Assembly (NCBI RefSeq): GCF_023822065.1
Contig: NZ_CP084930.1
Location: 2,310,001-2,374,000 of the forward strand
DNA: 64,000 bases
Source of the DNA: Sphingomonas morindae
GTDB taxonomy: Bacteria > Pseudomonadota > Alphaproteobacteria > Sphingomonadales > Sphingomonadaceae
Direction of reading: 5' to 3'
In this document: positions 17,131-49,241 of the stretch, one piece after another
Numbering within the stretch: position 1 is the stretch's first letter
How the letters are laid out: every line of letters begins with the position of its first letter
Position numbers and translations under genes: made by a program
Notes under the pieces: model-generated
Told to the model about the DNA's origin: nothing
What the model saw: the letters and a program-made list of their open reading frames with translations, nothing else
The model's database searches: none

Positions 17131-17143
17131 CGCGGGCCGATCC

Positions 17144-19368: not shown

Positions 19369-20045
19369 TTGCCGCCTCCCGAGCTGAGCGTGGCGCGGGT
19401 GTTGGTTTCCTCAAGGCCCTTCTTGCCGGTCACATCGGCCTCGCGCCAGGCGGCCACCGCCTTGACGCTGAGCGAGGCGTCGCTCGCCGGCCCGGCTTCG
19501 CGACCCTGCACCAGATCCTGCGGATCGGCGACCATGGCGGCGAGGTTGGTGGCGGTGGCGCAGCCGAAATTGCTGGTATTGGCGTTGTCATATTCCGCCC
19601 AGTTGCCGCGCGCCCAATCCGGACAGCCTTCGACGCGGGCGATCGCGCGGCTCACCACCACGCGTGCGGTGCCCGGCGCGGGATGCCCGGCGGTGACGGG
19701 CGCGGGGCTGTGCGCGAGCAGCATGCCGTAGCGCGACAGCACCGCGCCGACCCCGTCCGCCGCGGCGGCATCGCCGCCCACGCCGCTGGCGTCCACGCGC
19801 ACCGTGTCGCCATAGGAGAGGGCGAGGCTATCGAACCAATCGGCCAGGCGCTGTGGCTCGCCGGGGGCGAGCGCGCCGCCGGCCATGGCGACATCGAACA
19901 TCAGATCGGTGCGGCTCACGATCGGCGCGTGCATCGAATCGGCGGAGCGATTGTAGCTCGGCCGATCCCGCGCCACGGCGGGCGCGGCGAGACCGAGGGC
20001 GAGCAGGGCGAGCAGGCGGAGGCGGGGCATGCGGGCGCTCCTCAA
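19365..20045 (-). CDS. cpaD: Pilus assembly protein CpaD
   Basis: A 226-aa exported protein with a signal peptide (about residues 1-25, LRLLALLALGLAAPAVA). The CpaD pattern includes CPDWARGNWAEYDNANTSNFGCATATNLAAMV, with two conserved cysteines and the NFGCA segment, and DPQDLVQGRE. CpaD helps the CpaC secretin assemble. Most CpaD proteins are lipoproteins, but I see no lipobox cysteine at the signal cleavage site here. Four-base overlaps join it to cpaC and cpaE. Confidence 0.9.
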   Translation of the reverse strand: MRSARMPRLRLLALLALGLAAPAVARDRPSYNRSADSMHAPIVSRTDLMFDVAMAGGALAPGEPQRLADWFDSLALSYGDTVRVDASGVGGDAAAADGVGAVLSRYGMLLAHSPAPVTAGHPAPGTARVVVSRAIARVEGCPDWARGNWAEYDNANTSNFGCATATNLAAMVADPQDLVQGREAGPASDASLSVKAVAAWREADVTGKKGLEETNTRATLSSGGGK

Positions 20046-21568: not shown

Positions 21569-21570
21569 GA

Positions 21571-31305: not shown

Positions 31306-31310
31306 GCGCC

Positions 31311-34300: not shown

Positions 34301-34511
34301 CGGCAGCCAGGTGCAGAAGCCGCTGGCGCTGGTGGTGGTGGGCGGCATGACGCTGGCGCCGGTGCTGATCCTGCTGGTGCTGCCGCTGCTGATCGCGCGC
34401 TTCTCGCGCCATGTCGGCCCGCATGATCGCGGCGCCCATGGCCGCGATGTCGGGCATCACGCCCCGCCGCCGCCCCCGCACCCTCCGCTGCCCGCCGGGG
34501 AGCCCGCCTGA
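31311..34511 (+). CDS. RND efflux permease, heavy-metal (CzcA/CusA) type
   Basis: A 1066-aa inner-membrane proton antiporter with the two-fold RND repeat: membrane helix 1 at about 10-30, a large periplasmic loop, helices 2-6 at about 340-540, a second loop, and the last helices at about 860-1040. In helix 4 LDFGLVVDASVIMVEN keeps the Asp-Asp-Glu spacing (D, D+6, E+13) of the CzcA proton relay, which separates heavy-metal RNDs from drug RNDs. Metal choice cannot be read. The ATG at 31311 gives the standard short cytoplasmic start (MDKMVSFALRQRVLIVV). Its stop shares one base with the next ATG (TGATG). Confidence 0.9.
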   Translation: MDKMVSFALRQRVLIVVLLAGLIIAGGIAFSKLNIEAYPDPVPPMVEVVTQSAGTSAEEIERNVTIPLEIGIAGIPHITAVRSISLFGLSDIRIQFSYDVGYMEAQQQVLARLSQVGLPTGVQPTISPTSPVGEIYRYRISAPAGYSVMDLKTLQDWVLQRRFKRLPGVIDVTGWGGKLRTYEVVVDQNKLAAHGLTIGEVIGALGKSDGNVGGQTINFGPQAAIVRGIGLIQSTEQIQNVLVGTDGGAPVLLKDVATLRIGNEPRLGIAGEGHDSDIVMGIVLMQRGAESAPTIAAVKQEIATINAGGILPPGVTLTPIYDRSTLIGLTTHTVLHNLIEGVLLIFVLQWLFLGNLRSAIIVATTIPFALAFAVLILTIQGESANLLSVGALDFGLVVDASVIMVENIFRHMVERSEHIGSGHAHPTLASRFSAILHASNEVSRGIFFAAAIIIASFIPLFTLTGVEGHIFGPMAKTYAYAIAGGLIATFTVSPVLAAFLLPDRLEEVETRIVRGLRRVYEPAAAFALGNRLLTIGAAVLLMLGAVLGVRALGIEFLPHLEEGNLYIRATLPASISLEAGQPTVNAIRNIIADYPEIEHVASTHGRPDDGTDPTGFFNAEFYAPLKPFDEWPKGVDKDKLTAELQHKLNARFPGVDFEFSQYLEDGVEEASSGVKGANSVKLFGPDMQVLAKLADQIRDQMSQVQGIADLGVSSPLGQPTVQIDVDRVAAARYGLTPDDINTTVAAAIGGQSTADLYEKGTDRHYPIVVRLDPAQRDSLEALRRITVGAPAPGGTGQIQVPLSEVAHIQLTSGASFIYREHQERYVPIKFSVRDRDLGGAIGEAQARIARSVKLPTGYHLEWAGELANLASATARLEMVVPISLALILVLLYANFGSMTDTLLAFSVIPMALVGGVLALALTGTAFSISAAIGFVALFGIAVMDGILMVSSFNQGIDEGLDRAAALASMVRKGLRPVVMTCLAAAIGLLPAALSNGIGSQVQKPLALVVVGGMTLAPVLILLVLPLLIARFSRHVGPHDRGAHGRDVGHHAPPPPPHPPLPAGEPA

Positions 34512-36127: not shown

Positions 36128-37924
36128 TCAGTGATTGTCGCGCGGCAGCCCCTTGGTCTGCGCGATGCGCTGATATTTCTCCGATCCTTCCAGGATCATG
36201 CCGGTGCTCATCTGGCCGACCACCGATCGCTGGATCTCCTGCCACGGCGTCTGCGAGGCGGGATAGGGATAGCCGCCCTTGGCCTCCAGCGCGCGCCGGC
36301 GCTCGGCCAGCTCGGCCTCGGGGATCAGCACGTCGACGCGGCCGGCGCGAAGATCGATGCGGACGCGATCGCCCGTCTCGAGCAGCGCGAGGCCACCCAT
36401 CGCCGCCGCCTCGGGGCTGGCATTGAGGATCGAAGGCGATCCCGACGTGCCCGATTGGCGGCCATCGCCGATGCAGGGGAGCGAATGCACGCCCTCGGTG
36501 ATGAGATAGGCCGGCGGCCGCATATTCACCACCTCGGCCGCGCCGGGATAGCCGACAGGGCCCGCGCCGCGCATGAACAACATGGTTTCGGGCGTGATGC
36601 CCGTGGCGGGATCGTCGATCCGGTGATGATAATCCTCCGGCCCGTCGAACACCACGGCCGGGCCCTCGAAGGCATCCGGGCTGTTCGGGTTGGAGAGGTA
36701 GCGCGCGCGGAATTCCTCCGAGATCACGCTGGTCTTCATGATCGCGGCATCGAAGAGATTGCCCTTGAGCACGAGGAAGCCCGCCTCTTCCTTGAGCGGC
36801 TGCTCGAAGGGGCGGATCACCTTCTCGTCCTCGATCCGCGCGTCGCGGCAATTGTCGCCGATGCTGCGGCCATTGGCGGTGATCGCGTCTTCCGCGATCA
36901 GCCCGTGCCGGATCAGCTCGGAGACCACCGCCGGCACGCCCCCGGCGCGGTAATAATCCTCGCCCAGATATTCGCCGGCCGGCTGGAGATTGACGAGCAG
37001 CGGCACCTTGTGGCCGAATTCCTGCCACTCCTCGATCGGCAGCTCCACGCCGATATGGCGCGCGATGGCGGCGAGGTGGATCGGCGCGTTGGTCGAGCCG
37101 CCGATCGCGGAATTGACCACGATCGCATTCTTGAATGCGTCATGCGTCAGGATGTCCGAGGGCTTGAGATCCTCGTGCACCATTTCGACGATGCGCTTGC
37201 CGGTGAGATAGGAAATCTCCTGGCGATCGCGATAGGGCGCGGGGATGGCGGCCGAGCCGGGCAGCTGCATGCCCAGCGCCTCGGCCAGCGAGTTCATCGT
37301 CGTCGCCGTGCCCATGGTGTTGCAATAGCCGGTCGACGGGGCGGAGGAGGCGACCAGCCGGATGAACTCGGCATCGTCGATCTCGCCGGCGGCGAGCATC
37401 TGGCGCGCCTTCCACACGATCGTGCCCGAGCCGGTGCGCTCGCCCTTGTGCCAGCCATTGAGCATCGGGCCCACCGACAGCGCGATCGCCGGAATGTTGA
37501 CCGTCGCCGCCGCCATCAGACAGGCCGGCGTCGTCTTGTCGCAGCCGATCGTCAGCACCACGCCATCCAGCGGATAGCCGTACAGCGCCTCGACCAGGCC
37601 GAGATAGGCGAGGTTGCGGTCCAGCCCGGCGGTCGGCCGCTTGCCGGTTTCCTGGATCGGGTGGACGGGGAATTCGATGGCGATGCCGCCGGCCTCGCGA
37701 ATGCCCTCGCGCACGCGCTCGGCGAGCACCAGATGGTGCCGGTTGCACGGCGAGAGATCGCTGCCCGTCTGCGCGATGCCGATGATCGGCTTGCCCGAGC
37801 GCAGCTCGTCCAGGCTGAGGCCGTAATTGAGATAGCGCTCCAGATAGAGCGCCGTCATGTCGATATTGGCGGGATTGTCGAACCAGGCGCGGGAGCGGAG
37901 CTTGGGGGTCGGGCTGTCGGTCAT
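36128..37924 (-). CDS. xylD: Sugar-acid dehydratase, IlvD/Edd family (D-xylonate dehydratase-like)
   Basis: A 598-aa enzyme with the Fe-S cysteines of the IlvD/Edd family visible in [20 protein letters not shown] and [12 protein letters not shown]. The C-terminal [22 protein letters not shown] is also present. The start ([27 protein letters not shown]) and end (RDNH) strongly recall Caulobacter XylD, which converts D-xylonate to 2-keto-3-deoxyxylonate. L-arabinonate or another aldonate is possible, since paralogues are hard to separate by eye. It faces the FHS permease across a 231-base divergent region that contains a FadR-type operator, and it ends at the bidirectional terminator. Confidence 0.85.
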
Positions 37925-38053
37925 GCTGCTATCCGATCAACAAGTCGGGAGGGAAGGGCGTGGGACACCGAACGGACGCCGCCGCCGAAGCGCAGCACGG
38001 GGCCTTGCGCCGAATCGGCGCCGCCTCCGCACCATTGCCCCCTCCAGCTGTCA

Positions 38054-38087
38054 TTGACGCCTCGTTCGCCGCTATATAGTCAGACAA
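38054..38087 (+). promoter_or_regulatory. Promoter and FadR-type GntR operator before the FHS permease
   Basis: TTGACG (38054-38059) and TATAGT (38075-38080) form a plausible -35/-10 pair with a 15-base spacer. TAGTCAGACAA (38077-38087), an exact TNGTNNNACNA match, overlaps the -10 and the likely start site, as expected for a repressor. The same core (TAGTCGGACA on the other strand) recurs at 40300-40310 next to the cognate GntR gene. The site could also control xylD, which diverges from here. Confidence 0.6.
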
Positions 38088-38155
38088 AAAGAAAGAGGGC
38101 AAGCGTCGGGCGGCGCCGCGATGCCGGCCCGACGATGCAAAGGAGAAGGTTCGCC

Positions 38156-39463
38156 ATGGCCATGCCGGTTTCCACTGCGGCCCGCGCGACGGGGGAGCCG
38201 GTGGACGCAGCCCGCTATCGCCCCGCGCTGACGCTGCTCGCCAGCCTGTTCTTCATGTGGGGCTTCATCACCGTCATCAACAACACGCTGCTGCCGCACC
38301 TGCGCAGCGTGTTCGATCTGAGCTACACCCAGACGACGCTGATCGAGAGCGTGTGGTTCATCGCCTATTTCTTCGCCTCGATCCCGGCCGCCAAGCTGAT
38401 CGAGCGGATCGGCTATCAGCGCTCGATGGTGACGGGGCTCGTCATCATGGCGGTGGGCGCGCTGCTGATGGTGCCCGCCGCGCGCATCCCTTCCTATGGC
38501 GTGACGCTGGTGGCGCTGTTCATCGTCGCCAGCGGCATCACCCTGCTCCAGGTGGCGGCCAACCCCTATGTGGCGGTGGTCGGGCCGCCGGAAACGGCCT
38601 CGTCGCGGCTCAACCTGGTGCAGGCGTTCAACTCGCTCGGCACGACGCTGGCGCCGCTGTTCGGCGGCTATCTGATCCTCGGCCGCTCCACCTCGGGCAC
38701 CGCCGGCGCGCACGCCGCCGCGCTCACCCCGGCGCAGCGCCTGGCCGACGCGCAATCGGTGCAGCTGCCCTATATCATCGTGGCGGTGGTGCTGGTGGTG
38801 CTCGCGATCGTTATCGCGCGCTTCAATTTGCCGGCGATGGGATCGGCCACGCAGCGCGCCGCCAAGGCGGATCGGCGCGGCCAGTCGCTCTGGGCGCATC
38901 GCAACCTCGTCTTCGGCGTGCCGGCGATCTTCATCTACCTCATCGCCGAGATCGGGGTTTCAAACCTCTTCATCAACTTCGTCTCGCAGCCGCAGATCGG
39001 CAACCTCACCCATGAGCAGGCGTCGCACTATCTCTTCCTGCTCTGGGGCGGGATGATGGTGGGCCGCTTCATCGGCAGCTTCGCGATGCGCAACGTCGCC
39101 GCCGAGCATGTGCTCGCGGTGGCGGCGGTGGGCGCCTGCGCGGTGATGCTGATCGCCGCCTTCGCGACGGGGCCGGTGGCGATGTGGGCGCTGATCTCGG
39201 TGGGCCTGTTCCACTCGATCATGTTCCCCACCATCTTCACCCTCGGCATTCGCGGGCTCGGGCCGCTGACCGAGGAGGGATCGGGCCTGCTCATCATGGC
39301 CATCGCCGGCGGATCGCTGGTGGTGGTGCAGGGCTGGCTGGCGGACAGCTATGGCCTGCAGACCAGCTTCCTGCTCACCGCCGCGTGCGAGGTCTATACG
39401 CTCTTCTATGCCCTGTGGGGCGCGCGTCCCACCCACGCGCTGCCGGATCGCGCCGCCCGCTAG
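38156..39463 (+). CDS. FHS-family sugar:proton symporter (FucP/GluP-like MFS)
   Basis: A 435-aa, twelve-helix permease. ALTLLASLFFMWGFITVINNTLLPHLR is the signature first helix of the fucose/glucose/galactose FHS family, followed by LLQVAANPYVAVVGPPETASSRLNLVQAFNSLGT. It should import a hexose or pentose across the inner membrane. The ATG at 38156 has AAAGGAGAAGG at good spacing; upstream in-frame sequence is noise. It is divergent from the dehydratase and convergent with the GntR gene. The substrate is likely an aldose whose acid feeds the dehydratase. Confidence 0.88.
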   Translation: MAMPVSTAARATGEPVDAARYRPALTLLASLFFMWGFITVINNTLLPHLRSVFDLSYTQTTLIESVWFIAYFFASIPAAKLIERIGYQRSMVTGLVIMAVGALLMVPAARIPSYGVTLVALFIVASGITLLQVAANPYVAVVGPPETASSRLNLVQAFNSLGTTLAPLFGGYLILGRSTSGTAGAHAAALTPAQRLADAQSVQLPYIIVAVVLVVLAIVIARFNLPAMGSATQRAAKADRRGQSLWAHRNLVFGVPAIFIYLIAEIGVSNLFINFVSQPQIGNLTHEQASHYLFLLWGGMMVGRFIGSFAMRNVAAEHVLAVAAVGACAVMLIAAFATGPVAMWALISVGLFHSIMFPTIFTLGIRGLGPLTEEGSGLLIMAIAGGSLVVVQGWLADSYGLQTSFLLTAACEVYTLFYALWGARPTHALPDRAAR

Positions 39464-39503
39464 CGCGGGGCGGCACCGGCCATTGGCACGGCGATGGCGC
39501 GGA

Positions 39504-40250
39504 TCAGCGCGCCATCGCCGTTCGCGTATCGGCGAGCGCGAGATCGACGAGCAGCCGCATCGCCTCGGCGGCGGCCTCGGGCCGCCCGGCGGCGATCGCT
39601 TCATAGACGCGGGCATGATCGGGCACGGGGTTGCGCGGCAGCGCCAGCGCGCGCTGCTTATACTGGGTCGTCCAATTCACCGCCGCGCCGATGCTGGCGC
39701 TGAGCACGACCAGCGCATCATTGTGCGTGGCGCGCAGAATGGCATCGTGGAAATCCCGATCGGCGGCGCGCCCCGCCTCGGTGGTGAGGCTGTGGCGGCG
39801 CATCGCCGCCAGCGCATCCTTGATCGCCTTAAGCTCGGTGCGATCGCGCCGCTCCGCCGCCAGCCGCGCGGCGGCGGGCTCGACGATCGCGCGCAGCTCG
39901 AACAGGCTGCGGACGAAGCCGGGATCGGGTTCGTCGGCAAAGGCCCAGGCGAGCACGTCGGGATCGAGCAGGTTCCAGCGGGTGCGCGGCAGCACCCGGG
40001 TGCCGGCCTTGGGCCGGCTCTCCACCAGCCCCTTGGCGGCAAGCACCTGGACCGCCTCGCGATAGGCGCTGCGCGACACGTCGAGCGCTTCCGAGAAGGC
40101 GATCTCGCCCGAAAGCCGCTCGCCCGGCGGATAGGCGCCGCTGACGATCGCCACGCCCAGCTTGTGCGCGATCGCGCCGTGCAGCCGCCGGCCGGTGCCG
40201 CGCGCGCGCCGGCCCGGCTCCTCCTCGCACTCGCTGACTGGTCCCACCAT
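39504..40250 (-). CDS. GntR/FadR-type transcriptional regulator (sugar-acid type)
   Basis: A 248-aa regulator with an N-terminal winged helix (about 22-90, including LGVAIVSGAYPPGERLSGEIAFSE and SRSAYREAVQVLAAKGLVESR) and the C-terminal FCD domain (about 100-240). Metal-site residues are in RAADRDFHDAIL and PDHARVYEAI. KAGTRVLPRTRWNLLDPDVLAW is the linker typical of the LgoR/DgoR-like group that senses aldonates or their 2-keto-3-deoxy forms. The ATG at 40250 was chosen because earlier sequence lacks a start with a ribosome site. It is divergent from the dehydrogenase gene, with the operator at 40295-40316 between them. Confidence 0.87.
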   Translation of the reverse strand: MVGPVSECEEEPGRRARGTGRRLHGAIAHKLGVAIVSGAYPPGERLSGEIAFSEALDVSRSAYREAVQVLAAKGLVESRPKAGTRVLPRTRWNLLDPDVLAWAFADEPDPGFVRSLFELRAIVEPAAARLAAERRDRTELKAIKDALAAMRRHSLTTEAGRAADRDFHDAILRATHNDALVVLSASIGAAVNWTTQYKQRALALPRNPVPDHARVYEAIAAGRPEAAAEAMRLLVDLALADTRTAMAR

Positions 40251-40294
40251 AAGCCGATCCCCTGCCGGGCAGGGTTGAAGCCATGCGCCCGGCA

Positions 40295-40316
40295 CCCTAA
40301 TGTCCGACTATTAGGG
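40295..40316. promoter_or_regulatory. GntR operator in the regulator/dehydrogenase divergent region
   Basis: The core ATGTCCGACTA (40300-40310) reads TAGTCGGACAT on the other strand, one mismatch from TNGTNNNACNA and almost identical to the site at 38077-38087. It is nested in a longer seven-base inverted repeat, CCCTAAT with ATTAGGG (40295-40301 and 40310-40316). The right arm overlaps the AGGGAG ribosome site of the dehydrogenase gene. Confidence 0.6.
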
Positions 40317-40324
40317 AGTAACCC

Positions 40325-41875
40325 ATGACCACCCAAGCCCCAATCACCGCCGCCTCCGACTTTCGCTCCATCGACGCTCAGACGGGCGAGCCCTTTGGCG
40401 AGCCCTTCGCGGTGCACGGGCCGGCCGATGTCGCCGCCGCCTGCGCCGCCGCCGAAGCCGCGTTCGATCCCTATCGCAGCCTCCCGCGCGAGCGCCGCGC
40501 CGCCTTTCTCGACCGCATCGCGGAGGAGATCCTGGCGCTGGGCGACGCGCTGATCGAGGCGGCGATGCGCGAGAGCGGCCTGCCGCGCGCGCGGCTCGAG
40601 GGTGAGCGCGGGCGCACCATGGGCCAGCTCAAGCTGTTCGCCGAGGTGGTGCGGCGCGGCGCCTATCTCGGCGTGCGCGTCGATCCGGCGCTGCCCGAGC
40701 GCCAGCCGCTGCCGCGCCAGGATATTCGGCTGCGCCGCATTCCGCTGGGCCCGGTGGCGGTGTTCGGCGCCTCCAACTTCCCGCTCGCCTTCTCCACCGC
40801 CGGCGGCGACACCGCCTCGGCGCTGGCGGCGGGGTGCCCGGTGGTGGTGAAGGGTCATCCCGCCCATCCGCTCACCGGCGCGCTGGTGGCTTCGGCGATC
40901 GCCAAGGCGGCCGCCGCGACGGACATGCCCGACGGCGTCTTCGCTCATCTCGTCGGCCCCGGCACCGCGCTCGGCACCGCGCTGGTCGAGGATCCGCGCA
41001 TCGCGGCGGTGGGCTTCACCGGCTCGCGCGGGGGCGGCCTGGCGCTGCTCCGCCTCGCCCAGGCGCGGCCCGAGCCGATCCCGGTCTATGCCGAGATGTC
41101 CAGCATCAATCCGGTGGTGCTGCTGCCGGAGGCGCTCAAGGCGCGCGGCACCGCGCTCGGCCAGGCCTTTGTCCAGTCGCTGACGATGGGCGCGGGCCAG
41201 TTCTGCACCAATCCCGGCCTGGTGCTGGCGATCGAGGGCGAGGGGCTCGACGCATTCATCGAGGCCGCCAAGGGCGCAATCCTCGAGTCCCGCGCCACCA
41301 CCATGCTGACGGGCGGCATCCACGCCGCCTATGAGCAGGGCGTCGAGGCGCTGGCGAGCCATGGCGATGTCGAGACGGTGGCCCGCGGCCAGCTGGGCGA
41401 GGGCGTCACCTGCGGCGTCGCGGCGCTCTTCGCCACCAGCGTCGAGGCCTTTCTGAAGGACGAGCGGCTCGGCCACGAGGTGTTCGGCGCCTCCTCGCTG
41501 CTGGTGCGCTGCCGCGACGAGGAGGATCTGCACCGCGTGCTGCGCGCGGCCGAGGGCCAGCTCACCGCGACGCTGCAGATGGACGCGGGCGATACCGAGA
41601 TCGCCGCCCGGCTGGTGCCGATCCTGGAGCGCAAGGCCGGCCGCATCCTCGCCAATGGCTGGCCGACGGGCGTCGAGGTGACGCATGCCATGGTGCATGG
41701 CGGGCCCTATCCGGCGACCTCGGACGGGCGCACCACCTCGGTGGGCACGCTGGCGATCGACCGCTTCCTGCGGCCGGTCTCCTATCAGAATCTCGCCGAG
41801 CCGCTGCTGCCCGAGGAGCTGCGCGACGGCGCCGCAGGCAGTGTGCCGCGGCTTGTGGACGGCCAGCCCGGCTGA
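40325..41875 (+). CDS. 2,5-dioxovalerate (alpha-ketoglutaric semialdehyde) dehydrogenase
   Basis: A 516-aa aldehyde dehydrogenase of the KGSADH group. Catalytic Cys294 lies in [12 protein letters not shown] and the general base Glu257 in [14 protein letters not shown]. The NAD(P)-binding [36 protein letters not shown] is the group signature. It oxidises 2-oxoglutarate semialdehyde to 2-oxoglutarate, the last step of the Weimberg pathway and of oxidative L-arabinose and galactarate routes. This is the XylA role in Caulobacter, but I leave the symbol empty because xylA is ambiguous. The ATG at 40325 follows AGGGAG. A strong terminator lies 25 bases past the stop. Confidence 0.9.
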
Positions 41876-41899
41876 GCCGGCCCGCCTTCGGGCGGCAGC

Positions 41900-41936
41900 A
41901 AAAGGCCGCGCGGATCATCCTCCGCGCGGCCTTTTT
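41900..41936. terminator. Bidirectional intrinsic terminator
   Basis: A perfect 15-base-pair stem (arms 41900-41914 and 41921-41935, GGCCGCGCGGA core) with a six-base loop and flanking A4/T5 runs lies between the convergent dehydrogenase and GH3 genes. Confidence 0.9.
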
Positions 41937-41956
41937 CGTGCGCCCGGCGCCCGCGC

Positions 41957-44425
41957 TCAGCGCGGCGCGGGGCAGGCGGCGTTGGTCGGATCGGCGTCGA
42001 GCTTGATGCCCACGATCGACACCGTGAAGCCCTTGTCGGCGGCGAGCGCGAAGGGCGTCGTCACCTTGGCCATATCCGCGCCCGCCTTGCGGAAGCAGGC
42101 GAGCGGCAGCTTGGCGCTGGTCCATGTGCCGGGCTGGGCCCGGGCGAACAGCGCGGTGGCGTCGATCGCGGGGCCGCCGGTGGAGAGCGTCACCCGGCCG
42201 GTGGGCGCGGCATCGACACGATAGTCGATCCGCAGCGTCACCTGCGCATTGGTCTGCCGCGCCAGATCGAGCGAGGGCCCTTCGATCCGCACCTCGCCCG
42301 GACCGGTGAAGGCGAGCTGGCGCGCGCCCTCCTGCCGGCCGCCGCCATCGACATTGGTGATGCGCACCGCGCCCTTGCTCACCAGCTTCCACGGCGCCAC
42401 CGCGCGCCCGGGGATGAAATAGAGCGAGGGATTGGCGAGCGAGGGATCGATGCCCGCCACCTCGGGCAGAGTGGGCACGCTGGTCCGGCTGGCATAGGTG
42501 AGGCCATAGCCATAGGCGAACAGCGGATCATAGCCGGGCTGGCCGACATTGTTGGCGAATTGGGCGGCGGTGCGCGGCCAGGAGAAGCTCAGCTTGCCGC
42601 GGAAATCGGCCTTGGGCGCGCCGCTGCGCGTGGCCACCAGCACATCGGCGATGCCCGCGCCTTCCGAACCGGGCAGGAAGGCCGCGACAAAGGCGTCGGA
42701 CTGGTTGAGTTCGGGATTGACCCAGAGCGGACGCCCCGAGAGGAACACGGACACGACGGGGATGCCCTGCGCCTTGAGCGCCTTGAGCTGGGCGAGCGCG
42801 ACCTTGTCGCCGGGCTGGAACTCGAGCGTGCCGACATCGCCGACCATCTCGGCATAGGGCTGTTCGCCGAACACCACCACCGCCACATCGGGCTTGGCGC
42901 CGGCCACCCGGCCATCGGCGCTGAGCGTGGCGGTGCCGCCGGCGGCCTCGATCGCCTGCTTCAGCCCGGCCCAGATGCTGGTGCCTTGCGGGAAATCGGC
43001 ATTGGTGTTGCCGGTGCCCTGCCAGGACAGCGTCCAGCCGCCTGATTGCAGGCCGATATCATCGGCGTGGCTGCCGGTGACGAGCACCTTCTGGCCCGGC
43101 CGGATCGGCAGCAGCCCACCATTATTCTTGAGCAGCACGAGCGATTCCGCCACCGCCTGACGGGCGACCGCGCGGTGATCGGGCAATGCCAGCTCGGCCT
43201 TGCGCTCGAACGGGCGGGCGGGATCGAACAGCCCCAGCTTCACCTTCACGCGCAGGATGCGGCGCACCGCATCGTCGACCCGGGCGCGCGGGATGGTGCC
43301 ATTCTCCACCTCGCGCAGCGTATTGTCGTACAGCGCCTTCCAGTCGGACGGCACCATCGCCATGTCGAGCCCGGCGTTGAAGGTGAGCGGGCAATCGCCC
43401 TCGGTGCAGCCCGGCAGCTGGCCATGGGCGTTCCAATCGCCGACGACAAAGCCCTCAAAGCCCATGCGGCCCTTGAGCACATCGGTCAGCAGGCTGCGAT
43501 TGCCGTGGTTCTTGACCCCGTTCCACGAGGAGAAGCTGGCCATCACCGTCATCGCGCCGGCATCGATGCCCGAGACATAGCCGGCCGAATGCAGGGCGAT
43601 CAGCTCGCGCTCGGAAATCTGCGCATCGCCCTGGTCGACCCCGTTCTTGGTCGCGCCGTCGCCGAGGAAATGCTTGATCGACGCGGCGACCTTGCCCTGC
43701 TGGATGCGGCCGGTGCCGGGCGGCCCCTGGAGCCCGCGCACCATGGCGGCGGCATAGTCGCGCGTGATCTCGGGGCGCTCCGAATAGCCCTCATAGCTGC
43801 GGCCCCAGCGATCATCCTGCGGCACGGTGACGGTGGGGCCGAACGCCCAATCGAAGCCGGCGGCGGCGCTCTCGGCGGCGGTCACCGCGCCGATCCGCTC
43901 CATCAGCGCCGGATCGCGCATCGCGCCGAGGCCGATATTGTGCGGGAAGATCACCGCGCCCTTGACGTTGGAATTGCCGTGCACCGAATCCATGCCGAAG
44001 ATCACCGGCACGGGCACATGGCCGGGCCGCGCCTCGATCGAGACGGCGCGGAACCGATCGGCGGTGGCGATCCAGGCCGAGACGGGGGCGCGATCATCCG
44101 CGTCGAGCGGCGGCGAATTGCCGCCGCCGAGCACCGAGCCCACCGGATATTGGCGCAGATCCTCGGGCTTGATCGAGGCGATGTCGGCCTGGATCATCTG
44201 GCCCACCTTCTCGCGCAGGCTCATCTTGGCCATCAGCGCGGTGACCCGGGCCTCGGTCTGCGCGTCGACCAGCCCGGTGCTGTGCGCGGCCGGCCAGAGA
44301 TCGGGATGCGCGGTGGCGGCGGCCGGGAGCGCGCTGCCGTCCACGGGCGCGGCGGCGAGCGGCGACACCGCTGTCATCACGAAAATAGCCGCACCGCCCT
44401 TCAGCGCGCCCCTGAACCCCTTCAT
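41957..44425 (-). CDS. Glycoside hydrolase family 3, exported (ExoP-type exo-beta-glycosidase)
   Basis: An 822-aa enzyme with a signal peptide (AAIFVMTAVSPLAAA), a GH3 N-terminal barrel (about 60-400), a GH3 C-terminal alpha/beta sandwich (about 430-640) and a C-terminal beta-sandwich domain (about 670-820). The nucleophile Asp is in FEGFVVGDWNAHG and the KHFLGDG motif is present. The layout matches ExoP-type beta-glucosidases. Cleavage of xylo-oligosaccharides is possible given the xylose genes nearby, but is not proven. The ATG at 44425 follows GGGAGAG; a GTG two codons earlier is an alternative. It is divergent from the LacI gene with a half-operator between them. Confidence 0.9.
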   Translation of the reverse strand: MKGFRGALKGGAAIFVMTAVSPLAAAPVDGSALPAAATAHPDLWPAAHSTGLVDAQTEARVTALMAKMSLREKVGQMIQADIASIKPEDLRQYPVGSVLGGGNSPPLDADDRAPVSAWIATADRFRAVSIEARPGHVPVPVIFGMDSVHGNSNVKGAVIFPHNIGLGAMRDPALMERIGAVTAAESAAAGFDWAFGPTVTVPQDDRWGRSYEGYSERPEITRDYAAAMVRGLQGPPGTGRIQQGKVAASIKHFLGDGATKNGVDQGDAQISERELIALHSAGYVSGIDAGAMTVMASFSSWNGVKNHGNRSLLTDVLKGRMGFEGFVVGDWNAHGQLPGCTEGDCPLTFNAGLDMAMVPSDWKALYDNTLREVENGTIPRARVDDAVRRILRVKVKLGLFDPARPFERKAELALPDHRAVARQAVAESLVLLKNNGGLLPIRPGQKVLVTGSHADDIGLQSGGWTLSWQGTGNTNADFPQGTSIWAGLKQAIEAAGGTATLSADGRVAGAKPDVAVVVFGEQPYAEMVGDVGTLEFQPGDKVALAQLKALKAQGIPVVSVFLSGRPLWVNPELNQSDAFVAAFLPGSEGAGIADVLVATRSGAPKADFRGKLSFSWPRTAAQFANNVGQPGYDPLFAYGYGLTYASRTSVPTLPEVAGIDPSLANPSLYFIPGRAVAPWKLVSKGAVRITNVDGGGRQEGARQLAFTGPGEVRIEGPSLDLARQTNAQVTLRIDYRVDAAPTGRVTLSTGGPAIDATALFARAQPGTWTSAKLPLACFRKAGADMAKVTTPFALAADKGFTVSIVGIKLDADPTNAACPAPR

Positions 44426-44504
44426 CGTCACTCTCCCGTCGACCCATGATCTTGCGCCTCCCCGCCGGAGAGGTTCGTCCCGAATAGGCGGAAAGGCGCG
44501 GCGA

Positions 44505-44519
44505 TGGTAGCGCTTCTAT
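44505..44519. promoter_or_regulatory. LacI-type operator, imperfect copy
   Basis: TGGTAGCGCTTCTA (44505-44518, with following T) keeps the left half and centre of the perfect site TGATAGCGCTATCA at 49203-49216, but the right half is degraded (10 of 14 positions shared). It lies between the GH3 and LacI genes, where autoregulation and GH3 control would be expected. Confidence 0.4.
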
Positions 44520-44603
44520 GAAGCGGCGCGGCCGCCTTGGCGCATCCCCGGGGGCTCGCCGGACGGTGAAGGTTGCGCTAACCAGAGGGCGGAGGGGGCG
44601 TGC

Positions 44604-45683
44604 ATGGCGAAAAAGGTTACGCGGCGACAGGGCGGGGCGCCCACGATCAGCGATGTCGCGGCGCGCGCGGGCGTGTCCGCGATGACGGTGTCGCGCGTGA
44701 TCAACGGCGAGGCGCGGGTGCGGAGCGAGACGCGCGAGGCCGTGCACGCGGCGATCGCGGAGCTGCGCTACGCCCCCAATCCCGCCGCCCAGGCGCTCGC
44801 GGGCGCCAGCCAGATCCGCATCGGCCTGCTCTACAGCAATCCGAGCGCCGCCTATCTCAGCGCCTTTCTCGTCGGCAGCCTCGATTCCGCCAGCCGCAGC
44901 AACATCCAGCTGATCGTCGAGAAGTGCGAGCGCGACGACGATCATGAGGCGGAGATCGCGCGCCGCCTGATCGAGGGTGGCATGGACGGGCTGATCCTGC
45001 CGCCGCCGCTGTGCGATTCCCCGGCGATCCTCAGCGTGCTCGCCGAAAATCCGGTGCCGGCGGTGGCGGTGGCGACGGCGCGCGAGGAGGGGCCGGTGTC
45101 GAGCGTCGGCATCGATGATTTCCACGCCGCCGAGGCGATGACGCGCCATCTCGTCGACCTCGGCCATCGCCGTATCGGCATCATCCTCGGCTCGCCCGAT
45201 CTCAGCGCGAGCGCGCGGCGGCTCGAAGGCTATCGCGCCGCACTGGCGGCGGCGGGGCTGGAGACGTCCGACGCGCTGATCGCGCCCGGCCTCTTCACCT
45301 ATCGGTCCGGCCTGGAGGCGGCCGAGCGGCTGCTCGATCTCGCCGAGCCGCCCACCGCCATCTTCGCCAGCAACGACGATATGGCGGCGGCGGCGGTGGC
45401 GGTGGCGCATCGGCGCGGCCTCGACGTGCCGGGCGATCTCACCGTCTGCGGCTTCGACGATACTACCATCGCCACCACCGTCTGGCCCGAGCTTACCACC
45501 GTGCACCAGCCGATCGGCGACATGTCGCGCGCGGCGGTGGAGCTGCTGCTCGAGGCGGTGCGCGCCCGCCGCGCGGGCACCGCCTTCCCGGCGCGCCGCC
45601 TGCTGCTGGATTATGCGCTGGTCCGCCGCAAGAGCGATGCCGCACCGCGCCGCCCCGGCCGCCGCCGCCGCCCGCGCGCCTAA
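44604..45683 (+). CDS. LacI-family transcriptional regulator (XylR-like)
   Basis: A 359-aa protein with an N-terminal LacI helix-turn-helix (about 13-60, TISDVAARAGVSAMTVSRVIN and hinge PNPAAQALAG) and a periplasmic-binding-protein-like sensor domain (about 70-345). Sugar-domain landmarks are GMDGLILPPPL, DLGHRRIGIILGSPDLSASARRLEGYRAAL and FASNDDMAAAAVAVAHRRG. The C terminus is Arg/Pro-rich. It is flanked by the GH3 gene and the xylXB-permease operon. A perfect LacI-type palindrome precedes xylX. Xylose or a derivative is the likely inducer; this is inference. Confidence 0.88.
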   Translation: MAKKVTRRQGGAPTISDVAARAGVSAMTVSRVINGEARVRSETREAVHAAIAELRYAPNPAAQALAGASQIRIGLLYSNPSAAYLSAFLVGSLDSASRSNIQLIVEKCERDDDHEAEIARRLIEGGMDGLILPPPLCDSPAILSVLAENPVPAVAVATAREEGPVSSVGIDDFHAAEAMTRHLVDLGHRRIGIILGSPDLSASARRLEGYRAALAAAGLETSDALIAPGLFTYRSGLEAAERLLDLAEPPTAIFASNDDMAAAAVAVAHRRGLDVPGDLTVCGFDDTTIATTVWPELTTVHQPIGDMSRAAVELLLEAVRARRAGTAFPARRLLLDYALVRRKSDAAPRRPGRRRRPRA

Positions 45684-45686
45684 CAA

Positions 45687-45711
45687 AAACCCCCGCCCTT
45701 GCGGGCGGGGG
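45687..45711 (-). terminator. Intrinsic terminator of the xylXB-permease operon
   Basis: CCCCCGCCC pairs with GGGCGGGGG across a four-base loop. On the minus strand the stem is followed by TTTTTG, so it ends the leftward operon, 33 bases past the permease stop. It begins only four bases after the LacI stop, and may also brake that transcript. Confidence 0.85.
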
Positions 45712-45743
45712 CTTAGGATTTGGTTCGGGTCCGCCGCGCCGGC

Positions 45744-47162
45744 TCAGCCGGGCATGTCCTCCAGCTCGCGGCCCCGCGTCTCGCGCACCATGCGGCGCAC
45801 GAAGAAGAAGGAGAAGAGCGCGCTGACGGCGTAGAAGCCATAGGTGCCGCCCAACCCGACCCCGGCGGCGAGCGCGGGGAAGCTGACCGAGATGAAGAAG
45901 TTGGCCGCCCATTGCGCGGCCCCCGCCACGGCCAGCGCCGAGCCGCGGATCTGGTTGGGGAACATCTCGCCCAGCATCACCCACATCACCGGGCCCCAGC
46001 TGCCGTTGAAGAAGATGACGTAGAGATTGGCCGCGATCAGCGCGACCAGGCCGACAGTGTCGGACATGTGGAGCCCGCCATCGGCGGCGACGTGCGCGGT
46101 GGAGAAGCAGGCGGCGACCACCGCCAGCGTCACCGTCATGCCGGCCGAGCCGATCAGCAGCAGCGGCTTGCGGCCGATGCGATCGACGGTGAAGACGGTG
46201 ATGAAGCAGGCGAGGATCGAGAGCGCGCCCGACAGGATGTTGATCTTGAGCGAGTCCGCCTCGCTGAAGCCAACCGACTGCCAGAGCACCGCGCCATAAT
46301 AGAAGACGATGTTGATGCCGACGAGCTGCTGCAGGATGGCGATGCCGATACCCGCCCAGACCAGCGTGCGCAGCCGGCCGGTCGCGGGATCGCGCAGATC
46401 GGAGAAGCGCGGCCGGTGGTGATCGGAGGCGAGCGAGCCACGGATCTCGGCCACCTTCTGCGCGGCCTCGGTCGGGCCGAGCAGGCGGACGAGCACGCGG
46501 CGCGCCTCGTCCTCGCGGCCGCGCGCCACCAGGAAGCGCGGGCTTTCGGGAATGACCATCAGCGCCAGGAAGTAGATGGCGGCCGGGATGGTCTGCATCC
46601 AGAACATCCAGCGCCACGCCGCCATGCCCAGCCAGAAGGGCGCGGTGGAGCCCCCGGCGGCGTTGGCGAGCACATAATTGGCCACGAACGCCCCGGTAAG
46701 GCCGGAGATGATCATGATCTGCTGGACGCTGGTCAGGCTGCCGCGGATGCGCGCCGGCGTCACCTCGCTGATATAGACGGGGGAGAGCACGCTCGCCGCG
46801 CCCACGCCCAGGCCGCCGAGCAGCCGCGCCATGACGAACACGGTGGAGCTGCCGGCCGCGCCGGCGATCAGCGCGCTGACGATGAAGAGCAGGGCCGCGA
46901 CCATCATCACGCTGCGGCGGCCGAACAGATCGGCGAGCCGCCCGGCGAGGAAGGCGCCGGCGGCGCAGCCGATCAGAATGGCGCCGACATTGAAGCCGGT
47001 GCCCAGCCGCGACAGGTCGAAGGCCTTTTCCAGCCCCTCCTGCGTGCCGTTGATCACGCCGCTGTCATAGCCGAACATGAAGCCGCCGATGGTGGCGACG
47101 GCGACGATCGCGAGCACGAAGCGGCTATTCGCTTCCCCCGCCACGCTGGCCGTATCCTGCAT
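45744..47162 (-). CDS. MFS sugar:proton symporter, SP family (XylE/GalP-like)
   Basis: A 472-aa, twelve-helix permease of the sugar porter family. Signatures include GYDSGVINGTQEGL in helix 1, the AGRLADLFGRRSVMM loop, PVYISEVTPARIRG, VIPESPRFLVARGRE after helix 6, and the sugar-site QQLVGINIVFYYG in helix 7. It likely imports D-xylose (or glucose/galactose) with protons. I use the ATG at 47162: AGGAG lies about 12 bases upstream, whereas the GTG at 47171 would touch the ribosome site. It follows xylB by 45 bases and ends at a terminator. Confidence 0.88.
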   Translation of the reverse strand: MQDTASVAGEANSRFVLAIVAVATIGGFMFGYDSGVINGTQEGLEKAFDLSRLGTGFNVGAILIGCAAGAFLAGRLADLFGRRSVMMVAALLFIVSALIAGAAGSSTVFVMARLLGGLGVGAASVLSPVYISEVTPARIRGSLTSVQQIMIISGLTGAFVANYVLANAAGGSTAPFWLGMAAWRWMFWMQTIPAAIYFLALMVIPESPRFLVARGREDEARRVLVRLLGPTEAAQKVAEIRGSLASDHHRPRFSDLRDPATGRLRTLVWAGIGIAILQQLVGINIVFYYGAVLWQSVGFSEADSLKINILSGALSILACFITVFTVDRIGRKPLLLIGSAGMTVTLAVVAACFSTAHVAADGGLHMSDTVGLVALIAANLYVIFFNGSWGPVMWVMLGEMFPNQIRGSALAVAGAAQWAANFFISVSFPALAAGVGLGGTYGFYAVSALFSFFFVRRMVRETRGRELEDMPG

Positions 47163-47207
47163 TCCCCTCACTCTCCTGATTTTGGCAGCTTGATTAGAGA
47201 TTTGCGC

Positions 47208-47996
47208 TCAGCGCCAGCCGGCGTCGACAAAATAATGATGGCCGGTGCACATGCGGGCGTCGTCGGACGCGAGAAACAGGGCGAGCGCGGCGACATCGGC
47301 CGGCAGCACGCGCTGCTTGAGGCATTGCGTGCCGAGGATCCGCGCCTCCTCCTCGGCATCATGCCACAGCGCATCCTGGCGCGGGGTCTTGATGCCGCCG
47401 GGTACGATGGTGTTGACGCGGATATTGTCGGTGCCGAGATCGCGCGCCAGCGCGCGCGTCATGCCCTCAATGCCGGCCTTGGCCGTCTGGTAGAGGACGA
47501 TATCGGGCAGGGCGAGGTGCCAGCTGATCGAGCCGAGATTGAGGATCACGCCGCCGCCGGCCGCGCGCATCCCCGGCGCCACCGCCTGGGCGGCGAAGAA
47601 AAGGTGGCGCAGATTGACGGCGAGCCGATCGTCCCAATAGGCCGGGGTGACGGCGCCGACCTCGTGCCGATCATCATTGGCGGCGTTGTTGACGAGGATC
47701 TCCATCGGGCCGCCCAGCGCCGCTTCCAGCTCGGCGATCGCGGCGGTCAGCGCATCGATGTCGCGCAGGTCGCACGGCCGGAAGGCGGGGGCGAAGGCGG
47801 CACCGGGGGCGAGCCGCGCGGCCAGCGCCTGCGAGGCGTCCTGCGCGATGTCGATGAAGCCGACGCGCGCGCCCTGCGCCACAAAGCCCTCGACAAAGGC
47901 CTCGCCGATGCCGCTGCCGCCGCCGGTGATGAGCACGCGCTTCCCGGCAAGGCTGGGATACACCGCCCGGCCGGGCGCTTCAGAAATGTCCGACAT
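47208..47996 (-). CDS. xylB: D-xylose 1-dehydrogenase XylB (SDR)
   Basis: A 262-aa classical SDR that oxidises D-xylose to xylonolactone with NAD. The cofactor loop is TGGGSGIGEAFVEGF; the unusual NNAANDDRHEVGAVT and the active-site GSISWHLALPDIVLYQTAKAGIEGMTRALARDLG follow. The C terminus is LCTG-like (MCTGHHYFVDAGWR). These segments match Caulobacter XylB as I recall it, so the assignment is stronger than for most SDRs. It is 21 bases downstream of xylX. Confidence 0.9.
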   Translation of the reverse strand: MSDISEAPGRAVYPSLAGKRVLITGGGSGIGEAFVEGFVAQGARVGFIDIAQDASQALAARLAPGAAFAPAFRPCDLRDIDALTAAIAELEAALGGPMEILVNNAANDDRHEVGAVTPAYWDDRLAVNLRHLFFAAQAVAPGMRAAGGGVILNLGSISWHLALPDIVLYQTAKAGIEGMTRALARDLGTDNIRVNTIVPGGIKTPRQDALWHDAEEEARILGTQCLKQRVLPADVAALALFLASDDARMCTGHHYFVDAGWR

Positions 47997-48017
47997 GCAA
48001 GTTCCTGGATGAGAGGG

Positions 48018-49157
48018 TCAGGCCAGCGGGGCGGCGCGCGCGGGCGCCAGCAGGCCCCGCTCGGCGAGATTGCGCATGAGCGCGCCCACGCCGAAGGTCC
48101 AGGCGGGCGCCGCCTTGGAGGTGGTGACGCGGTTGACAAGCCGGCCGAGCCGGGCGCTGGCGATGGTGACGCGATCGCCTTCCTTGTGGGTGAAGCCGCG
48201 GCCCGGCTCGTCGCGATCGTCGGTGGGCGCGAAGAGCGTGCCGAGGAACAGCACGAAGCCGTCCGGATAATGATGCTCGCTGAGCGCCTGCCGCACCAGC
48301 TCGAGCGGATCGCGGCTGATCTGGTTCATCGAGCTGTGGCCGTCGAGCCGGTAGCCGTCCTCGCCCTCGATCAGCATGTCCACCTCGGCCTGGCGGACAT
48401 CGTCGATGGTGAAGCCCTGGTCGAACAGCCGGACCAGCGGGCCGACGGCGCAGGAGGCGTTATTGTCCTTGGCCTTGCTCAGCAGCAGCGCCGAGCGCCC
48501 TTCGAAATCGCGCAGATTGACGTCGTTGCCCAGCGTCGCGCCGACCGCCTCGCCCCGCGAATCGACCAGCAGCACCACTTCCGGCTCGGGATTGTTCCAG
48601 CCCGAATCCGAGCGCACGCCGATCGCCGCGCCGCCGCCCACCGTCGCCAGCACCGGCGCCTTGGTGAAGATCTCGGCATCGGGGCCGATCGCGACCTCGA
48701 GATATTGCGACCACATGCCATCGTCGATCAGCGCCGCCTTGAGCGCGGCCGCCTCGGCGCTGCCGGGCACCACGCTGCGGATCGAGCCGCCGATCCGCTC
48801 CTCCAGCCGCGCGCGGAGCGAGGCGGCAGCGCCGGAATCGCCGCGCGCGCGCTCCTCGATCACACGCTCGAGCGCCGACACGGCGAAGGTGACGCCCGCC
48901 GCCTTCACCACCTGGAGATCGATGGGGCTGAGCCAGCGCAGCGTTTCCACCGGGCCGAGCGGCCGGCCCTTCTCGGCCGTGAAGAGCCGCGCCTCGACCA
49001 GCGCCGAGACGGTGGGGGCGAGGGCGGCCATGTCATAGGCCTGGCCCTGCTCGATCAGCACGGGGCTCGGGCCTTCCGGAGTCGCGACGCGGCCGAGAAA
49101 GCGGCCCTCCCGCCAGTCTTCGGGCAACAGGCTGATATCGATGATCTGGCCGTCCAT
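48018..49157 (-). CDS. xylX: 2-keto-3-deoxy-D-xylonate dehydratase XylX (FAH fold)
   Basis: A 379-aa fumarylacetoacetate-hydrolase-fold enzyme. The core contains VTFAVSALERVIEERARGD, DDGMWSQYLEVAIGPDAEIFTKAP, WNNPEPEVVLLVDSRG and GNDVNLRDFEGRSALLLSKAKDNN, where the metal-binding acidic residues lie. These segments match Caulobacter XylX, which dehydrates 2-keto-3-deoxyxylonate to 2-oxoglutarate semialdehyde. The ATG at 49157 follows GGGAGAG and sets the length; an upstream start adds an Arg-rich non-homologous stretch. It is the first gene of its operon, behind the palindrome at 49203-49216. Confidence 0.92.
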   Translation of the reverse strand: MDGQIIDISLLPEDWREGRFLGRVATPEGPSPVLIEQGQAYDMAALAPTVSALVEARLFTAEKGRPLGPVETLRWLSPIDLQVVKAAGVTFAVSALERVIEERARGDSGAAASLRARLEERIGGSIRSVVPGSAEAAALKAALIDDGMWSQYLEVAIGPDAEIFTKAPVLATVGGGAAIGVRSDSGWNNPEPEVVLLVDSRGEAVGATLGNDVNLRDFEGRSALLLSKAKDNNASCAVGPLVRLFDQGFTIDDVRQAEVDMLIEGEDGYRLDGHSSMNQISRDPLELVRQALSEHHYPDGFVLFLGTLFAPTDDRDEPGRGFTHKEGDRVTIASARLGRLVNRVTTSKAAPAWTFGVGALMRNLAERGLLAPARAAPLA

Positions 49158-49202: not shown

Positions 49203-49216
49203 TGATAGCGCTATCA
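49203..49216. promoter_or_regulatory. Perfect LacI-type operator before xylX
   Basis: TGATAGCGCTATCA is a 14-base perfect palindrome with the central CG typical of LacI/GalR operators. It lies 46 bases upstream of the xylX ATG and downstream of the antiporter gene. An imperfect copy lies by the LacI gene (44505). Confidence 0.7.
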
Positions 49217-49241
49217 TATTCGCCGGGGAGCGGGCCCACTG

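Follow-up and report, generated by a model that had tools for sequence, protein, structure and literature searches.

A LacI-type regulator governs the xylose operon of Caulobacter. In Caulobacter crescentus this (Weimberg) operon has the composition xylXABCD (PMC6475665). Pseudomonas putida M2 carries separate xyl and ara clusters with a dehydratase in each (PMC10107873), and the Halomonas ara locus places two regulators, AraR (LysR) and AraR2 (GntR), on one oxidative arabinose route (PMC5507952, which also cites the oxidative L-arabinose genes of Azospirillum). FAH-type L-2-keto-3-deoxypentonate (L-KDP) dehydratases have been described in Herbaspirillum and Paraburkholderia (PMC6336799), and isomerase, Dahms and Weimberg routes have been reported together in Sphingomonas sanxanigenens NX02 (PMC10463938). 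Here we describe a 64,000-nucleotide stretch of the Sphingomonas morindae genome (contig C1, positions 2310001-2374000, of a 4.24-Mb assembly in 4 contigs; hereafter, the window), in which xylose genes behind a LacI-type palindrome lie beside a sugar-acid dehydratase, an FHS permease and an aldehyde dehydrogenase arranged around FadR-type GntR operators (Table 1), as an earlier note on this DNA had reported. In the reading that we favor, and consider fairly likely, two adjacent regulons meet at this locus, and the xylose branch, whose own xylD was probably lost, borrows the dehydratase and aldehyde dehydrogenase of an arabinose pathway.

The window shares with Caulobacter xylXABCD the XylX and XylB families, a LacI-type regulator and a route to 2-oxoglutarate; however, the S. 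morindae operon contains neither XylD nor a lactonase, and both the dehydrogenase and the only sugar-acid dehydratase, which falls outside the XylD clade, lie under another regulator. The xylDXA and araDXA clusters described for the P. putida group are likewise parallel and oxidative, and their XylX and XylA activities are reported to be replaceable by other proteins, but knock-down of xylD stops growth on xylose there, whereas in S. morindae xylD is missing (PMC10107873). As presented in PMC5507952, the Halomonas locus also joins two regulator families to one oxidative sugar-acid pathway, with its GntR accompanying AraD, AraA and AraE genes; it serves one sugar and its acid at one locus, whereas S. 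morindae has two pentoses, LacI plus GntR control and a xylose dehydratase that was probably lost. With the arabinose routes described in Azospirillum, Herbaspirillum and Paraburkholderia, S. morindae has in common a Gfo/Idh L-arabinose dehydrogenase (by PDB match), an IlvD/EDD dehydratase and an FAH-type L-KDP dehydratase. It differs in FHS uptake, in FadR-type control and in the dehydratase itself, which falls in PRK13017 and scores below the cut-off of the L-arabinonate dehydratase family NF009559 (PRK13016; 516.4 bits, cut-off 882); further, in Herbaspirillum arabinonate and xylonate reportedly each have a dehydratase of their own. The open-licence PMC literature, as far as it was covered, gave no account of this GntR regulon or of XylD-less sphingomonad xylose clusters, although RegPrecise or subscription journals, outside that scope, may hold one; the main text of a LacI-regulon survey contains neither the word XylR nor Sphingomonadales (PMC4052901). 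The novelty lies in the probable loss of xylD and the probable reliance on an arabinose/galactose-type dehydratase, the single parts being of known kinds and their wiring unusual.

The earlier note had called the dehydratase xylD-like. This description is correct at the level of the family, but identification as XylD was rejected on bit scores, tree and gene neighborhood. The best PDB match of the window protein was 7m3k, deposited as a galactonate dehydratase (1098 bits); it scored 812 bits to C. crescentus XylD (5oyn; PMC5770437), whereas a dehydratase from another genome of the genus (L149:5604-7379), representing what we call clade X, showed the reverse (1044 bits to 5oyn, 830 bits to 7m3k). 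The closest named match, at 90% identity, comes from a Sphingomonas. We built a quick tree from 65 chosen proteins, taken from 25 of the 80 dehydratase loci described below and from further loci, with one outgroup row (L082_O) on a very long branch; 5oyn was compared by score only and was not placed in the tree. The 15 clade-X rows stood on one side of a branch with an SH-aLRT value of 100, and the window protein belonged to the 49 rows designated clade A. Twenty-four alignment columns are fixed differently between the two groups, including T93/G94/K95 versus N/C/R; these three are next to E92, which in C. crescentus XylD is one of the Mg ligands (PMC5770437). Three helix residues proposed to set substrate choice in that enzyme, L26, E29 and R30 (PMC5770437), are kept in the window protein, but they are invariant in both clades (49 + 15 rows) and were discarded as evidence for XylD.

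No clade-X gene was found in the S. morindae genome. The earlier note had proposed a search for a second dehydratase; the genome has three PF00920 genes, of which the two outside the window are IlvD and Edd (above the cut-offs of NF009103 and TIGR01196, respectively). The enolase-type matches included a D-mannonate dehydratase, a DgcA racemase and one match below threshold (L017). In three gaps of the window, pieces of xylD-family, epimerase and other reference proteins gave chance-level matches, except for the dehydratase's own first residues. The gene order indicates where xylD is missing. A genome of the same genus (G061) has the order LacI-XylD-XylE-XylB-XylX. The window and G064 share the order LacI-XylE-XylB-XylX, the empty slot measuring 60 bp in the former and about 45 bp between aligned parts in the latter. 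Because LacI or a related regulator, LacI2, adjoins clade X in 10 of 15 clade-X genomes (G024, G040, G058, G022, G011, G013, G057, G036, G062 and G061), loss is likelier than many separate gains, and xylD was probably lost in the lineage of the window rather than gained elsewhere.

We compared this arrangement with the gene content of 59 genomes of the family (S. morindae among them), calling dehydratase matches of at least 73% identity clade A, full-length matches of 59-65% clade X and matches of 45% or less other IlvD/EDD proteins; one partial match (G044, 66% over residues 330-598, in a genome without XylX) was left unassigned. XylX was present in 18 genomes and clade X in 12, all of them among those 18, with the two genes no more than about 10 kb apart in 11 of the 12. 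Clade A occurred in 16 genomes, AraD1 in 14 and both in 12, and the four clade-A genomes without XylX (G017, G020, G046 and G031) all had AraD1. Five further same-genus genomes carrying XylX brought the total to 23 XylX genomes (AraD1 was searched in the 59 only), 15 with clade X and eight without it (G000, G052, G047, G027, G033, G041, G059 and G064). Clade A was present in all eight of the latter and in nine of the former, a pattern that is only suggestive of a link between a missing XylD and clade A; synteny is the stronger evidence. Individual genomes show several arrangements. For instance, G059 has no XylD but carries both xylX-xylB behind a LacI-type site and a complete arabinose cluster, in which two operator sites occur, and in G062 XylX lies apart from an XylB-XylE-XylD-LacI locus. 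A Sphingomonas metagenome-assembled genome (L046) holds XylX-XylB-XylE-LacI2-epimerase-clade-A dehydratase-GntR2-dehydrogenase in one cluster, and neither AraD1 nor AraDH was found in its examined flanks. This cluster speaks for the ability of clade A to serve xylose.

The neighborhood of clade A is mainly that of arabinose genes. Neighbors were counted within the examined flanks of the best 80 of 591 kept dehydratase matches (79-90% identity), at identity thresholds of 50% for AraD1, 45% for AraDH (a putative L-arabinose 1-dehydrogenase), 55% for the FHS permease, 45% for the epimerase, 50% for the dehydrogenase, 55% for XylX and 50% for XylB; the queries for DgoK and DgoA were PF05035 and a protein that passes NF006600. 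AraD1 or AraDH was found in 58 of the 80 loci, FHS in 37, the epimerase in 36, the dehydrogenase in 32 and a regulator resembling either the window's GntR (GntRw) or a second one, GntR2, in 40. XylX or XylB occurred in only three (L023, L046 and L067), and 19 loci had neither arabinose nor xylose genes. S. morindae itself has a second arabinose block (C1:2286388-2290302) about 56 kb upstream of that of the window (C1:2346128-2351875). Within it, L004:6388-9123 encodes AraD1, a Gfo/Idh dehydrogenase (AraDH) and GntR2, which is 56% identical to the window regulator, and adjoins the operator of an aldose epimerase. AraD1 (GguC family; L004:6385-7368) scored 513.1 bits against NF040903 (cut-off 340), with no PDB match at E 0.001; AraDH matched L-arabinose 1-dehydrogenase 6jnj (389 bits, residues 3-304 of 306) and D-galactose dehydrogenase 4ew6 (386 bits). 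The two blocks together would make up an oxidative L-arabinose route minus its lactonase, for which the better two of four SMP-30 family matches in the genome, C1:2790949 and C2:429714, are candidates (the others being C1:2388553 and C1:2384031; no XylC-type lactonase was found in the window). The earlier note's proposal of a second sugar acid, such as L-arabinonate, is therefore well supported by comparison, both by these neighbors and by the operators, described below, before AraD1-AraDH-GntR2 and the epimerase. The dehydrogenase is closer to that of the window in GntRw-linked loci (71.3% identity, 15 loci) than in GntR2-linked ones (62.3%, 12 loci), and AraD1 is closer in GntR2-linked loci (71.6%, 18 loci) than in GntRw-linked ones (68.2%, 22 loci); these values lend only moderate support to the idea that the arabinose genes are a mosaic of two cluster types.

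Could the GntR half instead be mainly a D-galactose (De Ley-Doudoroff) module, in which FHS would import galactose, the dehydratase would act on D-galactonate and the link to pentoses would be incidental? The label of 7m3k, the near-equal scores of AraDH against 6jnj and 4ew6, the alpha-galactosidase genes at L004 and L005 and the presence of DgoK or DgoA in 28 of the 80 loci all agree with this idea. We nevertheless consider it unlikely. AraD1 was found without either Dgo gene in 38 loci, as opposed to 16 with a Dgo gene and no AraD1, 12 with both and 14 with neither, and AraD1 and the semialdehyde dehydrogenase are, by established pathway knowledge, enzymes of the pentose route. Further, the examined parts of the S. 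morindae genome, which fall short of the whole, contained no DgoK match and a single weak DgoA match (36% over 73 residues), located beside Edd. In six loci (L133, L135, L136, L137, L151 and L154) a deeper-branching clade-A copy lies beside DgoK and DgoA (6/6) and an AraDH-like gene (4/6), and this copy is probably a galactonate version.

The window GntR has both GntR and FCD domains, and conserved TTGTCNGACTAT-type operators precede the pathway genes. Two FadR-type sites, one between the dehydratase and FHS and one before the dehydrogenase, are the sole window matches at one mismatch or fewer (0.12 expected; 2 of 100 shuffles reached two). The exact 12-mer TTGTCTGACTAT has two copies in the genome, against 0.03 expected from base composition, the second lying at C1:2290350 upstream of the aldose 1-epimerase; the looser pattern TNGTCNGACTAT showed no enrichment genome-wide (five matches, and five for its mirror). 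Locus L004 contains three operator matches versus 0.02 expected, of which two precede AraD1 (the one-mismatch site TTGTCCGAGTAT, L004:6319-6330, upstream of the AraD1 operon) and the epimerase. The third, at L004:3063, lies inside an unrelated frame (L004:2499-3527) and was dropped as a regulon member.

The operator is conserved in relatives, above all before FHS and the epimerase. Allowing two mismatches, and leaving out matches that start after residue 30, have less than 45% identity or retain fewer than 150 upstream bases, we found it before FHS in all 36 usable regions (mirror pattern, 2/36) and before the epimerase in 32 of 36 (mirror, 5/36). In a second set, which includes this genome and was filtered by the same criteria, it preceded FHS in eight of nine cases and the epimerase in seven of seven. 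These counts are not independent, because the two genes often flank one common divergent region and the genomes are related. Lower frequencies were obtained before the dehydratase (21/81; mirror, 4), AraD1 (9/50; mirror, 1), the dehydrogenase (5/30; mirror, 0), GntR2 (5/20; mirror, 0), GntRw (4/20; mirror, 1) and AraDH (2/47; mirror, 2), as expected if these genes are mostly internal to operons. In all 36 FHS regions TTGAC occurs within 32 bases before the operator, at 22-23 bases in 34 of them, and 27 of the regions also have GCAA[GC] in the 20 bases after it. We read this pattern as two divergent promoters whose -10 boxes overlap a single operator, as would befit control by a repressor; the remaining operator sites of this genome do not display the layout in full. 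The stretch GGGCAAGC, shared by the window promoter and that of the L004 epimerase, was considered as a remnant of the FHS leader, but this idea was abandoned since the stretch recurs as GCAA[GC] in the 27 regions mentioned; it fits the -35 region of the leftward promoter.

On the xylose side, xylX and xylB lie on one strand, 21 bp apart, the Weimberg-type pairing in one operon. The perfect palindrome TGATAGCGCTATCA occurs once in the genome in exact form, 45 bases upstream of xylX if translation starts at 49157; with the alternative ATG at 49217 it would fall inside the frame. Weaker matches mean little by themselves: at up to two mismatches there are seven places genome-wide versus five for the mirror, and at up to three the window contains two, with 1.78 expected. 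The weight of the palindrome comes instead from its recurring position. A LacI-type site with at most three mismatches precedes xylX in 13 of 19 upstream regions, selected with the filters given above and with the window included (12 of them at one mismatch or fewer; no mirror control), and in three of five further same-genus genomes. The 300 bases upstream of the dehydratase, and likewise of the dehydrogenase, contain no such site, although both genes have GntR-type sites, nor does any of the seven genome-wide places fall in these stretches. By these measures the operon or regulon of xylX includes neither an XylD nor the semialdehyde dehydrogenase, unlike one of the xylXABCD type. Elsewhere in the genome, a one-mismatch LacI-type site (L007:6812) lies close to where a frame of 771 aa begins; this frame reads as a GH67 alpha-glucuronidase (no NCBIfam family) and is followed by a second LacI (L007:9074-10150, 68% identical to that of the window), and another (L006:11658) precedes a frame that reads as TonB-receptor-like; these sites perhaps mark a xylan regulon.

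A complete second xylose operon elsewhere would have counted against the split pathway of the earlier note, and it has a partial counterpart on contig C2, where a xylose isomerase (TIGR02630, 649 bits) and a xylulokinase (TIGR01312, 550 bits), both above cut-off, form a pair (L008:2200-7110; C2:227200-232110) that provides an isomerase route. The pair lies with GH43-like and deacetylase-like genes (by reading) near a LacI-like site, TGGTAGCGCTACCA, whose two mismatches place it at the level barely above the mirror (7 vs 5). In five loci of relatives (L029, L055, L058, L060 and L138) an isomerase and a xylulokinase are found close to arabinose-oxidation genes or a clade-A dehydratase. If xylose passed through the C2 pair, xylX-xylB could be a leftover, its oxidative branch without flux since the loss of xylD. 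We regard this as improbable: although an isomerase is found in three of eight XylD-less XylX genomes as compared with two of 15 with XylD, the other five of the eight show none at E 1e-60, S. morindae has intact xylX and xylB genes and an exact LacI palindrome, and in five XylD-less genomes (G059, G064, G052, G047 and G027) both genes are retained and xylX is preceded by a LacI-type site with one mismatch. Most improbable is a single xylose Weimberg pathway with the dehydratase acting as XylD under GntR control, since, even though about 13 kb hold XylX, XylB and a dehydratase of the XylD family and the helix residues are retained, the enzyme stands outside the XylD clade and its close homologs are so rarely accompanied by XylX or XylB; with the xylD slot between LacI and XylE empty as well, we do not retain the earlier note's picture of one Weimberg pathway split in two.

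The favored reading would operate as follows. One regulon, for the oxidation of L-arabinose and possibly also D-galactose, would be controlled by FadR-type GntR repressors and would comprise FHS uptake, the clade-A dehydratase and the semialdehyde dehydrogenase in the window and, upstream, the aldose epimerase, the L-arabinose/galactose 1-dehydrogenase, AraD1 and the second GntR behind their operators. The other, for D-xylose, would comprise MFS uptake, XylB and XylX under LacI, which in the presence of xylose would release xylX-xylB-MFS. XylB forms xylonolactone, and xylonate would arise from it through a lactonase encoded elsewhere or by spontaneous opening. The xylonate would be dehydrated by the GntR-controlled clade-A enzyme in place of XylD, XylX would take the D-keto-deoxy acid and AraD1 the L-form, and one dehydrogenase would finish both routes to 2-oxoglutarate. 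Of the "shared lower steps" in the earlier note, the semialdehyde dehydrogenase and presumably the dehydratase would therefore remain shared, but not the keto-deoxypentonate step. L-arabinonate and D-xylonate have the same C2/C3 configuration, which the IlvD/EDD family needs, and differ at C4. C. crescentus XylD prefers D-xylonate over L-arabinonate 120-fold and the Rhizobium leguminosarum enzyme prefers L-arabinonate 10-fold, yet both accept both, according to PMC5770437; the hexonate range is covered in PMC9795676.

GntR bound across the -10 boxes would block the two divergent promoters, and an intermediate of the sugar-acid route would release it. If the inducer is an acid or semialdehyde common to both routes, the lower pathway would be shared, as the earlier note supposed; an inducer peculiar to arabinose or galactose would make those sugars the gate for xylose oxidation. 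We hold tentatively, as a possibility with the odds against it, that the two repressors act in series, such that xylonate is dehydrated only once arabinose, galactose or a shared sugar-acid intermediate releases GntR. XylB and XylX would then be made on xylose. Cells given xylose only would release xylonate or turn to the isomerase route, and the presence of arabinose would prepare them to oxidize xylose.

Several observations weigh against the favored reading. With preferences of 10- and 120-fold in relatives, the clade-A enzyme could be poor on xylonate, and since an isomerase route exists, the oxidative xylose branch might be idle. The 49 clade-A rows are the remainder of the tree and are not demonstrated to be a single clade (2 changes). 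Clade A was the only IlvD/EDD sugar-acid dehydratase found, no search having been aimed at UxaA/GarD-type dehydratases, and an enolase-type match (L016, 95.5 bits versus a cut-off of 500) may leave another sugar-acid dehydratase. The co-occurrence of clade A with a missing XylD is weak as statistics, the one-sided Fisher value being 0.0496 over the 23 genomes and 0.092 without G033 and G041, uncorrected for kinship. In these two genomes XylX has neither XylB nor a LacI-type site in the examined stretches; G041 is without AraD1 and has its clade-A gene beside DgoK/DgoA, and G033 shows no dehydrogenase of the window type. Finally, a promoter scan of the operator region returned no sigma-70-like sites (0.9 expected), its spacers being 16-18 nt and the spacer here being counted as 15.

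If the favored reading is correct, the locus would be a natural case of a pathway that apparently lost one of its essential enzymes and depends on a neighboring regulon, with sister genomes that have the enzyme as controls. Proximity to xylose genes is not enough to identify a dehydratase of this family as XylD, a second group associated with arabinose and galactose genes being common. An operator and a probable regulon can now be named for the oxidative use of arabinose by sphingomonads. The locus also suggests, with a view to xylose engineering, that several sugar acids may be handled by a single dehydratase.

Table 1. Positions of genes and regulatory sites in the S. morindae window
Feature	Position	Strand	Basis or remark
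IlvD/EDD sugar-acid dehydratase, clade A (L-arabinonate/D-galactonate type by neighborhood), not XylD	36128-37924	-	NF009560, 1038 bits; tree; synteny
GntR-type operator TTGTCTGACTAT	38076-38087	-	Between dehydratase and FHS; overlaps putative -10 boxes of two divergent promoters
FHS/GluP-type sugar permease	38156-39463	+	TIGR01272, 300.7 bits (cut-off 202.55)
FadR-type GntR regulator with FCD domain	39504-40250	-	PF00392 and PF07729 above cut-off; alternative GTG start at 40295
GntR-type operator ATGTCCGACTAT	40300-40311	+	13 bases before dehydrogenase start; divergent gntR on other side
Aldehyde dehydrogenase, probable alpha-ketoglutaric semialdehyde dehydrogenase	40325-41875	+	PF00171; nearest PDB 3v4c, 1eyy
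GH3 glycosidase	41957-44431	-	PF00933/PF01915; between GntR half and LacI half
LacI-family regulator, probable xylose repressor	44604-45683	+	PF00356/PF13377; adjoins XylD/XylE/XylB/XylX in relatives
LacI-XylE junction, 60 bp, terminator-like hairpin	45684-45743	.	xylD occupies this slot in same-genus genome G061
XylE-like sugar-porter MFS	45744-47162	-	TIGR00879, 354.8 bits (cut-off 237.8)
XylB, D-xylose 1-dehydrogenase	47208-47996	-	NF053674, 430.3 bits (cut-off 400)
XylX, FAH-type 2-keto-3-deoxy-D-xylonate dehydratase	48018-49157	-	PF01557; PDB matches 9kkt, 2q18
LacI-type palindrome TGATAGCGCTATCA	49203-49216	.	Precedes xylX-xylB-MFS

The two transporters exceed subfamily cut-offs only, the MFS protein scoring 368.5 bits against the XylE equivalog, below its cut-off of 608. 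No NCBIfam equivalog was above cut-off for the aldehyde dehydrogenase, the GH3 protein or LacI, and no NCBIfam family was found for XylX. The aldehyde dehydrogenase, the sole copy in the genome at E 1e-40, is probably a ketoglutarate-semialdehyde dehydrogenase, named from its AraD1/AraDH neighborhood.

Between the two arabinose blocks, at L004:16728-19194 and L005:2189-4411, lie a third FadR-type GntR and two alpha-galactosidases (PF16499 and PF02065 matches), together with TonB-receptor-like frames. Two records belong by name to Xanthomonadales (L039, Rhodanobacter sp. A1T4; L052, Luteibacter jiangsuensis); they contain an arabinose module with 84-85% dehydratase identity and an operator-like site with two mismatches before the dehydrogenase, likely owing to horizontal transfer or a naming problem. 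A record titled Bacillus sp. 2B10 (L048) has FHS, AraD1 and dehydratase genes of sphingomonad type (dehydratase identity, 87%) and is probably a mislabelled or contaminated assembly. Elsewhere in the window, type II secretion/Tad-pilus type genes (T2SSF and secretin Pfam matches) occupy positions 16135-21574, and an RND-type efflux pump gene (ACR_tran) is found at 31308-34511.

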